DNA of 64,000 nucleotides, taken from Verrucomicrobiales bacterium (GTDB taxonomy: Bacteria > Verrucomicrobiota > Verrucomicrobiia > Verrucomicrobiales > DEV007). The position numbers and the translations under genes are program-made. Below, piece after piece: positions 25,485-30,615 of the stretch (positions are counted from its first letter, which is position 1; each line of letters starts with the position of its first letter). The notes under the pieces were generated by a model that saw only the letters and a list, made by a program, of their open reading frames with translations, was not told the origin of the DNA and did not search any database. The DNA lies in assembly GCA_016795385.1 (NCBI GenBank), contig JAEUHI010000033.1:1-64000 (forward strand). Direction: 5' to 3'.

Positions 25485-26483
25485 ATGAAATCCCCGCTCC
25501 CTCTCGCCATCACCGGCACCGGCATCGCCGTGCCGCGGACGATGCTGCCGGCGGCGGAGCTGGATGCGAGGCTGGGATTGCCCGCAGGCGAGAGCGAGCG
25601 GATCACGGGCATCGCAAAACGTCACACCGCGATCGACGAGACCGCCTCACAACTCGCCGCCGGGGCGGTGCGAGCCGCGCTGACCGACGCGGGGCTGGCC
25701 TGGGAGGCGGTCGATTGCCTGATCTGCGCCTCGGCGACGATGGATCAGGCGCTGCCCTACAATGCCGCGATGACTCTCGCGGAGCTGCCCGAGGCCCGGG
25801 AGCATCGCGTCGCCGCGCTGGATGTGGGAGCGAGTTGCCTTTCCTTTCTGCAGGCCCTCGATCTGGCGGCCTGTGCGATCTCGGCGGGTCGTTACGAGAC
25901 CCTCGTGATCGTCTCGTCCGATATCGCGAGCTTCACGACGGACTATCGCGACCTGCGCGGCAACGGGATCTTCGGGGATGGAGCGGCCGCCGCGGTGGTG
26001 CGGAGAACGCGCGAGGGCGAGCCCTCGGCGGTGCTCGCCTCGCGCAGTGTGACGCTGCCGGAGGGGATCGACTATTGCCGGATCCGGTCCGGTGGCTCGA
26101 GGTTTCACCGCCGCGGGTTTCCCGATCATGGCGAGGCCCTGTTTGAAATGACGGGACGCCCGCTCTACGCCCTCGTCGCCCGGGAGCTGCCGCGTTTTGT
26201 CGATGCCCTCCTCACCGAGGCCGGCGTGGCGAAGTCGGAGATCGATCTGCTCGTGCCCCACCAGGCGAGCCGGCAGGCGCTCGATCATGTCGCGAAGATG
26301 CTCGGGTTCGGAGAAGGCCGCATGGTCGACGTCTTCGCCGGATACGGCAACCAGGTCGCGGCCTCGCTGCCGACGGCGCTGCATTCCGCGATCCACGGGC
26401 ATGGACTGAAAAGAGGGGGCAAGGTGCTCTTGTTAGGGTCCGGTGCCGGCGTGACGATCGGCGGGATGGTGCTGGTGTATTGA
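25485..26483 (+). CDS. ketoacyl synthase III family enzyme (FabH/OleA-like)
   Basis: 332 residues, thiolase fold. Catalytic residues are visible: Cys in VGASCLSFLQAL, His in VPHQASRQAL and Asn in GYGNQVAAS. FabH-type enzymes condense acyl-CoA or acyl-ACP with malonyl-ACP, and the OleA relative condenses two acyl-CoAs head to head. The gene opens a tight four-gene cluster with an MBL hydrolase, an adenylate-forming enzyme and an NAD epimerase, which favours a dedicated pathway over housekeeping fatty-acid initiation (inference). A TTA codon lies in the TGTTAGG variant at 26431-26437. Confidence 0.88.
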   Translation: MKSPLPLAITGTGIAVPRTMLPAAELDARLGLPAGESERITGIAKRHTAIDETASQLAAGAVRAALTDAGLAWEAVDCLICASATMDQALPYNAAMTLAELPEAREHRVAALDVGASCLSFLQALDLAACAISAGRYETLVIVSSDIASFTTDYRDLRGNGIFGDGAAAAVVRRTREGEPSAVLASRSVTLPEGIDYCRIRSGGSRFHRRGFPDHGEALFEMTGRPLYALVARELPRFVDALLTEAGVAKSEIDLLVPHQASRQALDHVAKMLGFGEGRMVDVFAGYGNQVAASLPTALHSAIHGHGLKRGGKVLLLGSGAGVTIGGMVLVY

Positions 26484-26498
26484 AGTCTGCCGGATGCG

Positions 26499-27374
26499 AT
26501 GACGGAAACACCAGCGAAGCCCCCGGCCATCAAGTTCGACTTGCTCAAGGTCGGGCATTGCGGACATCCGGAATGTGTGGCAATGCGGGGTGGGGGGCTG
26601 GGATCGATCGAGTTCCCCGCGCTGGTCGGATTGATCGAGCATCCGGCGGCGGGTTTGATCCTCTATGACACCGGATACGCCTCGCATTTTTTCAGCGAGA
26701 CCAAGCGGGTGCCGGAATGCCTCTATCGTCTCGTCACACCGGTGCGTCTGCCACCCGAAGAGGTCTTGCTGACCCAGCTCGAATCGCGGGGGATCGCGGC
26801 GTCGGACATCGGCACGATCGTGATCTCGCATTTCCACGCCGACCACATCGCGGGGCTGCGGAATTTTCCGAAGGCCCGTTTCGTCGCGACCCAGGCGGAA
26901 CGCGCCTCGAACGAGGCCCGCGGGCGATGGGGACAGGTGCGCCGCGCCTATCTGCGCGGCCTCCTGCCCGCGGATTTCGACTCGCGGGTAACTTGGGCGG
27001 AGGAAATGCCCGCTCCGCTTGCCTTTCCTTGGCCGGGATTCGGTGTGGGTTTTGATCTGATCGGCGACGGCAGTCTCGTCGGTGTCGATCTGCCGGGTCA
27101 CACCGCTTCGCAGCTCGGGCTTCATTTCCGGGGAGAGGAATGGGGCGAGGTCTTCCTCGTCGGCGACGCCTGTTGGAAGATCGAGGGACTCGAGCAAGAC
27201 CGTCCTCCGGCGCGACTCGCCTATTCGCTTTTCGCCGATGGCGCAGCCTACGATGCGACCTTCGCAGCCCTGCGGGAACTGGCGATGGCACCGGGTGGTC
27301 CGATCGTGATTCCCTCGCACTGCGCCACGACCTGGGCGAAGCTCGGTGGCACCCGTCACATCGACCATGCTTGA
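26499..27374 (+). CDS. metallo-beta-lactamase-fold hydrolase
   Basis: 291 residues with no signal peptide. The zinc motif ISHFHADHIAGL is followed by the later metal ligands in LPGHTASQLGL, LVGDACW and a C-terminal VIPSHC. The overall arrangement resembles lactonase-type MBL proteins of the AHL-lactonase kind, though the substrate here is unknown. The gene starts 15 bp after the KAS III gene and overlaps the next gene by 8 bp. In an ole-type pathway the matching slot is filled by an alpha/beta hydrolase (OleB), so this enzyme could open or hydrolyse a lactone or thioester intermediate (inference). Confidence 0.85.
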   Translation: MTETPAKPPAIKFDLLKVGHCGHPECVAMRGGGLGSIEFPALVGLIEHPAAGLILYDTGYASHFFSETKRVPECLYRLVTPVRLPPEEVLLTQLESRGIAASDIGTIVISHFHADHIAGLRNFPKARFVATQAERASNEARGRWGQVRRAYLRGLLPADFDSRVTWAEEMPAPLAFPWPGFGVGFDLIGDGSLVGVDLPGHTASQLGLHFRGEEWGEVFLVGDACWKIEGLEQDRPPARLAYSLFADGAAYDATFAALRELAMAPGGPIVIPSHCATTWAKLGGTRHIDHA

Positions 27375-28638
27375 CCGGCTCCTCATCCTCTGGCACTTCG
27401 CCGCGACGCGCTGGTTTCCCGCACCGGGCCTGCGCACGCGCGCGCGTCGCCTGCATCGGTTCCTGGCGAGGGTGCGGCGCGAATCTCCCTTTTACCAACG
27501 TATCGATGGAGAGCCGCCGATCCTGACAAAGTGCGAATTCCTTGAACATTTCACGGAGTTGAACCGGCACGGATTCACTCTCGCCGAAGCCACCGAGGTG
27601 GCGTTGCGGGCGGAGCGGGAACGCGATTTCCGTCCGGAATTGCCGGGAGGTGTCACCGTGGGGCTCTCGTCGGGCACGTCGGGGACACGCCATGTCTTTC
27701 TCGTGGGACGTTCCGAGCGCTGCCGATGGGCGGGCCAGATGTTGGGGCATACCCTGGCTCCGGCATCGTTGCGACAGATCCTGAATCCCTTCGCGCCACC
27801 CCTGCGTCTCGCGTTCTTTCTGCGTGCGAGCAGCAATCTCTACACGACTCTCGCGAGCCGGCGCGTCGCCTTCGACTATTACGATCTGACGCGTCCTTTC
27901 GGCGACCTCATGCGCGCGTTGGCGGCGGCGCCTCCCGATGTCCTGATCGCCCCGGCCACGGTGCTCGCGGAGATCGCAAGGGCGCGTCCGGCGATCTCGC
28001 CGAGGCAGATCCTGTCGGTGGCGGAGGTGCTCGATTCGCGCGACCGAGCCCTGGTGGAAAATGTTTTCAATGTGCCGGTCGCCGAGGTCTACCAGGCGAC
28101 GGAGGGATTCCTCGGCTGCACCTGCCCGGCCGGGCGGATGCACTTGAATGAGGAAACACTCCACATCGAGCCTCTCTGGATCGATGACGAACACGAGCGG
28201 TTCCACCCGGTGATCACCGATTTTTCAAGATCGACGCAATGGTTCGTGCGGCATCGTTTGAATGATGTGCTGCGGTATGATCCGACGCCTTGCCCCTGCG
28301 GCAGGAGGACGAAAACCCTGCTCGCGATCGAGGGGCGGGCCGAGGAGGTGCTATGGCTGCCGGACGATCGTGGCGAACCCGCCGCCGTGTTTCCCGATAC
28401 GGTGCGTCAGGCGATCTATTCCCTCGCCTCGCCACCCGACCGTTATCGCGTTGAACAACACGCGATGCGCTGGGAGGTGCGAATGTCAGGGGGCGATGAA
28501 GGCGAGGTGCGGAAGTCGTTCGCGGGTCTCGCCGATCGTCTTGGTCTGGTTCGACCTGAGGTCGTCTTTCTTCCCTGGACCGAGCAACCGGCGTCGGAAA
28601 AACAAAAGCGCATCCGATGTCTCGCCAAGCCGGAATGA
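27367..28638 (+). CDS. adenylate-forming enzyme, F390 synthetase / CoF-synthetase-like (PaaK family)
   Basis: 423 residues from ATG 27367, inside the end of the MBL gene. The P-loop-like motif LSSGTSGTRHVFLVG and the later EVYQATEGFLGCTCP place it in the PaaK/CoF-synthetase branch of ANL adenylating enzymes. A Cys-containing segment near the C-terminal hinge (PTPCPCGRRT) is typical of that branch. It probably activates a carboxylate as the acyl-AMP. The acceptor is unknown. In ole clusters the ANL enzyme OleC forms a beta-lactone from a beta-hydroxy acid. Copies of the TGTCAGG core occur at 27522 (reverse) and about 28485. Confidence 0.85.
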   Translation: MLDRLLILWHFAATRWFPAPGLRTRARRLHRFLARVRRESPFYQRIDGEPPILTKCEFLEHFTELNRHGFTLAEATEVALRAERERDFRPELPGGVTVGLSSGTSGTRHVFLVGRSERCRWAGQMLGHTLAPASLRQILNPFAPPLRLAFFLRASSNLYTTLASRRVAFDYYDLTRPFGDLMRALAAAPPDVLIAPATVLAEIARARPAISPRQILSVAEVLDSRDRALVENVFNVPVAEVYQATEGFLGCTCPAGRMHLNEETLHIEPLWIDDEHERFHPVITDFSRSTQWFVRHRLNDVLRYDPTPCPCGRRTKTLLAIEGRAEEVLWLPDDRGEPAAVFPDTVRQAIYSLASPPDRYRVEQHAMRWEVRMSGGDEGEVRKSFAGLADRLGLVRPEVVFLPWTEQPASEKQKRIRCLAKPE

Positions 28639-29627
28639 AAACGAAGATCCTCATCACGGGGGCCTCGGGATTCGTGGGGCGCTCGTTCTGCCTCCGCCAC
28701 GCCTCGCGCGACGATCTCGAGATCCGCGGGCTGGCGCGTCGTCCCATGGGGCTGCCCGGATACATACAGGCCGACCTGACGCGTCCGCTCTCGATCGATT
28801 GGACTCCCGATGTGGTCATCCATGCGGCGGCGCGATCGTCGCCCTGGGGGACGAAGCGGGACTTTCACCGTCAGAACGTGCGGGCGACCGAGCATGTGAT
28901 CGACTTTTGCGAGCGGCGCGGGGTGAAAAAGCTCGTCTTCGTCTCCTCGAGTTCCGTCTTTTACCGGGACGAGGATCAGCTCGACCTCACGGAGGATTCG
29001 CCGATCGGACCGACTTATGTGAATGCCTATGCGTCGACCAAACACGAGGCGGAAAAGCGGGTGCATCGCTATCGTGGCGAATGGTGTGTGGTGAGGCCGC
29101 GTGCGGTCTTCGGACCCGGCGATACGGTGCTTTTCCCCCGCATTCTGCGTGCGGCGGCAGAGGGACGCATGATCTCGATCGCGCGACCTGGAGCCCCCGC
29201 GATCGGCGACCTCATCTACATTGACACCCTTTCCGACTATCTCCTTCGGGCAGCGCTCGATTCCTCAGTGGTCGGAGATTTCAACGTGACCAATGCCGAG
29301 CCCGTCGTGATGCAGGATCTGCTCGCGGAGATCTTTTCGCGCCTTGGGCTACCGCCCGCCGATCGCAGCGTCCGCTTGGCAAAAGCGATGCGGATCGCGG
29401 GAGTGGTCGAGGGATTCTACCGCGTTTGTCTTCCGTGGCGCGAGCCGCCGATCACGCGGTACGGCGTGGGAGTGCTCGCCTATTCCAAGACCTTCGATGT
29501 CGCGAAGGCCCTGCGGGTGCTCGGTCCGCCGAGCGTGCCCTTGCGCGAGGGGATCGATCGATTCATCGAATGGCAACAGGCGCGGAACGCGGAAATGGCG
29601 TCTGGCGACGAAGGCAAAACCACGTAG
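28635..29627 (+). CDS. NAD(P)-dependent epimerase/dehydrogenase (extended SDR, OleD-like)
   Basis: 330 residues from ATG 28635, overlapping the previous stop by 4 bp. The Rossmann motif GASGFVG, the active-site Ser in FVSSSSVF and Tyr-Lys in NAYASTKHEAE give a complete extended-SDR triad. The C-terminal half resembles 3-beta-hydroxysteroid dehydrogenase-type SDRs, the family to which OleD (2-alkyl-3-keto acid reductase) belongs. It is the fourth gene of the cluster. It may reduce the beta-keto product made by the KAS III enzyme (inference). Confidence 0.87.
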   Translation: MKTKILITGASGFVGRSFCLRHASRDDLEIRGLARRPMGLPGYIQADLTRPLSIDWTPDVVIHAAARSSPWGTKRDFHRQNVRATEHVIDFCERRGVKKLVFVSSSSVFYRDEDQLDLTEDSPIGPTYVNAYASTKHEAEKRVHRYRGEWCVVRPRAVFGPGDTVLFPRILRAAAEGRMISIARPGAPAIGDLIYIDTLSDYLLRAALDSSVVGDFNVTNAEPVVMQDLLAEIFSRLGLPPADRSVRLAKAMRIAGVVEGFYRVCLPWREPPITRYGVGVLAYSKTFDVAKALRVLGPPSVPLREGIDRFIEWQQARNAEMASGDEGKTT

Positions 29628-29636
29628 TCTAACGCG

Positions 29637-30236
29637 ATGATCGATCCAGCTTCCACAAATGGCGCCCGCCCGCGGATCGCGATCTTCGGCGGATCCTTTG
29701 ATCCGGTGCACCGGGGTCATCTCGCCATGGCCGCTGCCGCACGCGAGGTGGCCACGCTCGATGAGGTGATCTTCATGCCCGCGGCGGTTTCGCCCTTCAA
29801 GAAAGGCACCGTCGCGTCGGCGGAGCAGCGTCATCGCATGCTCTCGATCGCCCTCGCGGAGGTCAGTCTGGATTGGGCGCGTGTCTCGGATTTCGAATGG
29901 AAACGCCCCGGCCCAAGTTATTCCTGGGAGACGGCGCGCCATTTTCGCTCGCTCGACCCCGATACGGAATGGTGCTGGATCCTCGGCACCGATCAGTGGG
30001 AGCAGATCGACCGCTGGGCCGAGCCGGAGCGGTTGCGAGAGTCGCTCCATTTTCTCGTCTTCACCCGCGAGGGGCAAACCGTGCGCGATCGCCCAGGTTG
30101 GCGGCACACCGCGATCCCCTTTGCTCATCCTGCATCCTCGACCGCGATCCGATCCGACTTCGCGGCACACCGCGACTGGCTCACGCCGGGGGTCGCCGCG
30201 TTTGCCGAAAAAGAGGGGATTTATCAAAAAACGTAA
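29637..30236 (+). CDS. nadD: nicotinate-nucleotide adenylyltransferase
   Basis: 199 residues with the nucleotidyltransferase opening FGGSFDPVHRGHL and the C-terminal SSTAIRSD motif. The acceptor-site region WILGTDQWEQIDRW is typical of NadD. It adenylates nicotinate mononucleotide in NAD synthesis. It starts 9 bp after the SDR gene, so it is probably co-transcribed with the cluster, although its role is housekeeping. The ribosome silencing factor and proA genes that often accompany nadD are not here. Confidence 0.93.
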   Translation: MIDPASTNGARPRIAIFGGSFDPVHRGHLAMAAAAREVATLDEVIFMPAAVSPFKKGTVASAEQRHRMLSIALAEVSLDWARVSDFEWKRPGPSYSWETARHFRSLDPDTEWCWILGTDQWEQIDRWAEPERLRESLHFLVFTREGQTVRDRPGWRHTAIPFAHPASSTAIRSDFAAHRDWLTPGVAAFAEKEGIYQKT

Positions 30237-30279
30237 GGGATCGATCCAATCCATCGTTTCATTCCGTAGACAAACATTC

Positions 30280-30615
30280 ATGAAAGCCATCCATCTCGAT
30301 TCCTCCAATTTCGATACCACTCTCGCCGGGACCGATCTGCCCGTGCTGGTCGATTTCCACGCCGAATGGTGCGGCCCTTGCAAGATGCTCGGTCCCATCG
30401 TCGAGCAGATCGCCGAGGCGAAAGACGGCGAGGCCGTCGTCGCCAAGGTCGACATCGACGCCGCGCGCGATCTCGCGATGCGCTACCGCATCACCTCCGT
30501 GCCGACGGTGATCGTCTTCAAGGGCGGCGAGCCCGTCGTCGGCGCCCGCGGCGTGCAGACCAAGGCTGCGCTCGAATCCATGATCGCCGAAGCGGCCGCG
30601 AAATCCGTGGCCTGA
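30280..30615 (+). CDS. trxA: thioredoxin
   Basis: 111 residues with the redox site WCGPC (residues 30-34) and the cis-Pro segment SVPTVIVF. It is a cytoplasmic dithiol reductant for ribonucleotide reductase, peroxiredoxins and similar partners. It starts 43 bp after nadD and is followed by a strong intrinsic terminator, so it is the last gene of the plus-strand unit. Confidence 0.95.
   Translation: MKAIHLDSSNFDTTLAGTDLPVLVDFHAEWCGPCKMLGPIVEQIAEAKDGEAVVAKVDIDAARDLAMRYRITSVPTVIVFKGGEPVVGARGVQTKAALESMIAEAAAKSVA

Follow-up and report, generated by a model that had tools for sequence, protein, structure and literature searches.

The OleABCD and OleACD systems, which lead to olefins and beta-lactones, are built from four roles, i.e., a ketosynthase (KAS), a hydrolase, an adenylate-forming (ANL) enzyme and an SDR. 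In OleA, Glu117, which is followed by a proline and comes from the partner subunit, is the essential base (PMC4578411, PMC7064751); it is present in all but two members of the OleA set (PMC7064751), and the equivalent glutamate is essential in the related PpyS (PMC4578411). The KAS III enzymes MxnB (myxopyronin) and CorB (corallopyronin) carry a valine at the position of the OleA glutamate (PMC4578411), and two chains are joined by these enzymes (PMC4578411, PMC5724707). A second substrate tunnel is a mark of this type of KAS. The partners of MxnB and CorB are carrier proteins of type I PKSs, their genes belong to large PKS clusters, and alpha-pyrones are formed. In the alkylquinolone system PqsA-PqsD-PqsE, an ANL enzyme, a KAS III enzyme and a thioesterase of the metallo-beta-lactamase (MBL) fold are combined.

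The window, i.e., the whole stretch of 64,000 nucleotides that was analysed, contains a core of four genes on the forward strand. The first gene (25485..26483) encodes an MxnB/CorB-like ketosynthase of the KAS III type with matches to PF08545 and PF08541, and the second (26499..27374) a lactonase-like hydrolase of the MBL fold (PF00753). Next are the genes for a PaaK/F390-synthetase-like ANL enzyme (27367..28638) and for an extended SDR of the 3-beta-HSD/OleD-like type (28635..29627; PF01370 and PF01073). The four enzyme types of the original prediction, including the PaaK/F390 branch for the ANL, were confirmed by Pfam and NCBIfam, and the ORF coordinates bore out the tight packing that it described, with spacings of +15, -8 and -4 bp. 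The mechanical ORF of the ANL begins with a GTG at 27346, but the ATG at 27367, which fits the overlap with the MBL gene, was used; for the SDR the start at 28635 was used, and an alternative ATG is located at 28617. The dN/dS values versus two congeners were 0.10-0.18 for each of the four genes, and therefore all four ORFs are real coding genes; they are intact, closely packed and under purifying selection. The gene nadD (29637..30236, forward strand; TIGR00482) follows 9 bp downstream of the core. It was considered as a pathway member and rejected, as it adjoins the core only in the window and in the genomes G001 and G010, and this adjacency is not conserved otherwise; nadD is thus probably outside the pathway. 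An ORF with a thioredoxin-like sequence (WCGPCK) was seen closely after nadD (29881-30615). No Rfam RNA was found in the region of 20-36 kb of the window.

The ketosynthase has the catalytic triad Cys118-His259-Asn289, which is invariant in the alignment of the core KAS. At the place of OleA Glu117 and PpyS Glu105 the window protein has Leu90, and in all 22 core KAS this position is L, I or V, with the following Pro kept. The same 22 proteins have Gln88, and so do MxnB and CorB; none of the FabH sequences has it. Profile comparison with the PDB revealed MxnB and CorB as the nearest solved relatives (341 and 328 bits), followed by FabH (up to 270 bits), PqsD (168 bits) and OleA (112 bits). In the phylogenetic tree, the 22 core KAS together with MxnB/CorB were split from 13 FabH-type sequences with a support of 1.00, and the placement of MxnB/CorB with respect to the core KAS was weakly resolved (support 0.54-0.90). 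An identity as housekeeping FabH, which would have spoken against the original prediction, was rejected by this split; the genome has its own separate FabH on contig C84, which was found on the FabH side. The model PRK09258, which we take to describe an OleA-like family, gave 88.9 bits with the window KAS versus a cut-off of 285, and none of 37 genomes had a protein over the cut-off. The triad, the glutamine at position 88 and the aliphatic residue at the OleA-Glu place are thus shared with MxnB/CorB. In contrast to these, the core KAS is free-standing and accompanied by SDR, MBL and ANL, and no PKS gene was found beside the core in the loci inspected. The chain fusion in malleicyprol formation was also considered as a parallel and was discarded; it uses an NRPS condensation domain, not a ketosynthase of the core type (PMC12304814).

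The other three enzymes also have conserved catalytic residues. In the MBL alignment, the metal ligands H111, H113, D115, H116, H201 and D223 are invariant, and the nearest relatives are AHL lactonases (92 bits by profile) and pyridoxolactonase. In the ANL protein the P-loop (101-106), Y242xxTEG, D300, G323R324 and K412 are invariant, and C253, H259, C309 and C311 are nearly so; the latter four look like a putative metal site. The ANL reached 315.5 bits with TIGR02304 ("F390 synthetase-related protein", cut-off 251.9), no Pfam match was obtained, and PF00501 was absent at 1e-3. In the SDR alignment S104, Y132 and K136 are invariant. The best NCBIfam model for the SDR, in the window and in its relatives, was OleD (NF042422).

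All four genes were found together in 24 of the 26 inspectable loci with a TIGR02304 protein, and chance adjacency is rejected because of this co-conservation. The homologues are thus not scattered, which would have spoken against the original prediction. The 24 loci span the order of the window organism, Pseudomonadota, Bacillota and Fusobacteriota, the identities to the window proteins are mostly 27-50%, and the gene order varies. Among 57 genomes of the window's relatives, eight (the window genome included) have an ANL over the cut-off, and a wider draw from the phylum added one more ANL-bearing genome, G299. In the window's order the four genes are adjacent in the window, G001, G010, G299, G037, G008, G016 and G056; in G018 the contig stops at the ANL. 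In the plasmid collection, 16 of the 18 inspected records have the four genes together. The records are from Paenibacillus, Pontibacillus, Pseudomonas, E. coli and Fusobacterium, and from Burkholderia, Paraburkholderia, Roseateles, Ketogulonicigenium, Paracoccus, Rhizobium, Shinella and Novosphingobium. The commonest gene order in them is KAS-SDR-MBL-ANL, and in the window clade the SDR is shifted to the end of the core. The two exceptions are the Pseudomonas megaplasmids pBASL58, which has a looser version of the gene set, and pMPPla107. On the latter (L039:7968-11556) only ANL and ATP-grasp genes were seen, with no KAS, SDR or MBL gene nearby. No phage copies of the core were found, and a search of the genome contigs with the ANL protein alone gave just one distant PaaK-like match.

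The core is linked in several phyla to genes for an ATP-grasp protein and for a PF13480-like protein of the GNAT type. Both genes are also present in the window genome, where they form a stand-alone pair of neighbours on contig C32 (306124-307152 and 307157-308263; L076:9122-11273), unlinked from the core, and this pair has 63% identity to the core-linked pair of G008. Also in G001 and G010 the two genes are split from the core. Within the genus, the pair was present in all six core-bearing genomes and in none of the nine core-lacking genomes tested (Fisher p = 2e-4, uncorrected for kinship). The ATP-grasp ligase and the GNAT-type transferase therefore belong with the core pathway. In G299 and G037, which are members of other families, the core is present and no close copy of the pair was found, and thus the amine-coupling step proposed below would not be universal.

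In the phylogenies, the window KAS groups with Paraburkholderia (support 0.99), and so does the window MBL (0.70). G008 and G016, which belong to the same genus as the window organism, carry a different core lineage (L024, L026). The ANL and SDR trees also part the two core lineages, and the link to Paraburkholderia is not resolved in them. The ATP-grasp and GNAT proteins of the window genome, in turn, group with those of G008/G016. Two core lineages in one genus suggest replacement or separate acquisition, and the simplest reading would be that the core was replaced in the window lineage and the older ATP-grasp/GNAT pair was kept.

The interpretation that we favour, with a probability of about 0.42, is that the core is the conserved heart of an uncharacterised, horizontally spread pathway for a small molecule or lipid, which is completed in this genome by the unlinked pair on C32. 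The enzymes of the set probably act on fatty-acid-like chains, which would be joined, trimmed, reduced and activated again. The best reading is a condensation of two chains, or one that yields a beta-keto product, after which the acid would be reduced and activated again, probably followed by coupling to an amine. The sequences themselves give the enzyme families, the intact active sites, the co-conservation of the core and its association with ATP-grasp/GNAT; the substrates, the order of the steps and the product are inferred. First, the KAS would load an acyl chain onto Cys118 and would make the C-C bond without a glutamate base of the OleA type; the partner may be a beta-ketoacyl chain with an acidic alpha-carbon, as in the mode of MxnB/CorB, or a malonyl unit in a decarboxylative reaction. 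Second, the MBL, as a di-zinc enzyme, would hydrolyse the thioester (or a lactone) to liberate the beta-keto acid; it could be a lactonase rather than a thioesterase. Third, the OleD-like SDR would reduce the beta-keto to a beta-hydroxy group, and fourth, the PaaK-like ANL would re-activate the acid as acyl-adenylate. Where present, ATP-grasp and GNAT would link the activated acid with an amine or an amino acid, and would acylate it.

By profile, the solved structure that the ANL matches best is phenylacetate-CoA ligase, and PaaK relatives usually activate aromatic acids; this preference would speak for an aryl substrate and against a fatty one. In an aryl route of the PqsADE kind, the ANL would convert an aromatic acid to the CoA form, the KAS would extend it with malonyl, the MBL would hydrolyse the aroylacetyl thioester, and, with the SDR, an aryl beta-hydroxy acid or signal would result. 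The KAS III, MBL and ANL of the core match the enzyme types of PqsD, PqsE and PqsA, but we regard this route as unlikely, because the KAS is nearer to MxnB/CorB and FabH (341/270 bits) than to PqsD (168 bits), and the MBL is nearer to lactonases (92 bits) than to PqsE (32 bits). In addition, the neighbours elsewhere are of a lipid type, i.e., a fatty-acid hydroxylase, a desaturase and PAP2 in E. coli and GT21 in Fusobacterium. The core differs from the Pqs set by the extra SDR, the gene order and the accessory genes.

The parallel to the Ole systems, on which the original prediction was based, held for the four roles and for the OleD-like character of the SDR. It did not hold for the other proteins, i.e., each of the 22 core KAS has L, I or V in place of the OleA glutamate, and the ANL resembles PaaK and not OleC, which is a beta-lactone synthetase of the PF00501 type. 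As predicted, the hydrolase slot is filled by the MBL fold, with PF00753 as its only Pfam match, and not by an alpha/beta hydrolase like OleB, a beta-lactone decarboxylase. Even the SDR is far under the OleD cut-off (144 versus 580 bits; 226 bits in G037). In a divergent Ole pathway, two fatty acyl-CoAs would enter a non-decarboxylative Claisen condensation, followed by SDR reduction and formation of a beta-lactone by the ANL; the MBL would act on this beta-lactone instead of OleB, and a beta-lactone or olefin would be the product. The reaction classes match, and a lactone substrate is plausible for a lactonase-like MBL, but the missing glutamate, the far weaker match of the KAS to OleA than to MxnB (112 versus 341 bits) and the absence of OleB and OleC make such a pathway quite doubtful. 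With respect to the product, the original prediction had named a beta-lactone, an olefin or another head-to-head lipid. Head-to-head chemistry may still apply because MxnB/CorB are the nearest characterised relatives of the KAS, and an olefin is unlikely, as both the OleA base and OleB are missing.

A catabolic or quorum-quenching module, in which the MBL, a CoA ligase, the SDR and a thiolase-fold enzyme would degrade a lactone or a beta-hydroxy acid, is improbable. The relationship of the MBL to AHL lactonases and pyridoxolactonase would fit, and every enzyme could work degradatively, but a KAS III with Cys-His-Asn is of the synthetic type and not a degradative thiolase, the conserved cluster lacks transporter and beta-oxidation genes, and ATP-grasp/GNAT and tailoring genes accompany the core. 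That the ANL adenylates coenzyme F420 within an F390 synthetase cluster can practically be dismissed, because the family name is its one favourable point, the neighbours do not fit, and no match to CofD (F420 gene cofD) was found in any of the seven core-bearing genomes tested, so that F420 would be missing and its adenylation is very unlikely to be the function of the ANL. Of the predicted F390/CoF branch, membership in TIGR02304, a model without assigned function, was thus retained and the F390 function was not.

The single genes were known under automatic names, and the TIGR02304 model existed before; the cluster would be a further member of the known kind of small pathways that are initiated by a KAS III. 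No description of the cluster or its product was found in the open-licence literature, and subscription journals may hold one. A screen of a kiwifruit pathogen contained one "coenzyme F390 synthetase" mutant, for which it is not established that the same gene is concerned (PMC9823363). We tentatively propose, at somewhat less than even odds, that the core and the ATP-grasp/GNAT pair represent a class of bacterial lipids or signals that has not been described so far, made with an MxnB-like KAS, an MBL, an OleD-like SDR and a PaaK-like ligase; it would be spread horizontally across phyla and, with different tailoring genes, be carried by about 12% of complete E. coli genomes. Beside the Ole, Pqs and pyrone pathways, this would be a further route that is initiated by a KAS III, with an MBL as hydrolase.

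The core set was found in 674 of 5,426 complete E. coli genomes (~12%, about one in eight), nearly always at full length, and the probiotic strain Nissle 1917 and CFT073 are among the carriers. The presence in well-studied strains makes the function of the "F390 synthetase-related" family directly testable. The E. coli set has seven genes, i.e., the core and genes for PAP2, a fatty-acid hydroxylase and a desaturase, and in the inspected genomes it is located between narI and the tyrT/purU region. In the chromosome of strain ABU 83972 (L043:6001-12882), for example, the seven genes were seen after narI and before tRNA-Tyr/purU. In Fusobacterium vincentii (L040:3246-10189), genes for a family-21 glycosyltransferase (GT21), a second SDR and an unknown protein of 215 aa are located upstream; the record is labelled as a 2.1-Mb plasmid and looks like a mislabelled chromosome. 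A Rieske protein is encoded beside GNAT and ATP-grasp in Rhizobium, Shinella and Roseateles (L041:9257-12521, L042:9221-12488 and L072:7206-10449). In the versions of the Rhodobacterales (L036, L068, L073), the core is adjoined by a divergent TetR regulator gene and a sulfotransferase gene.
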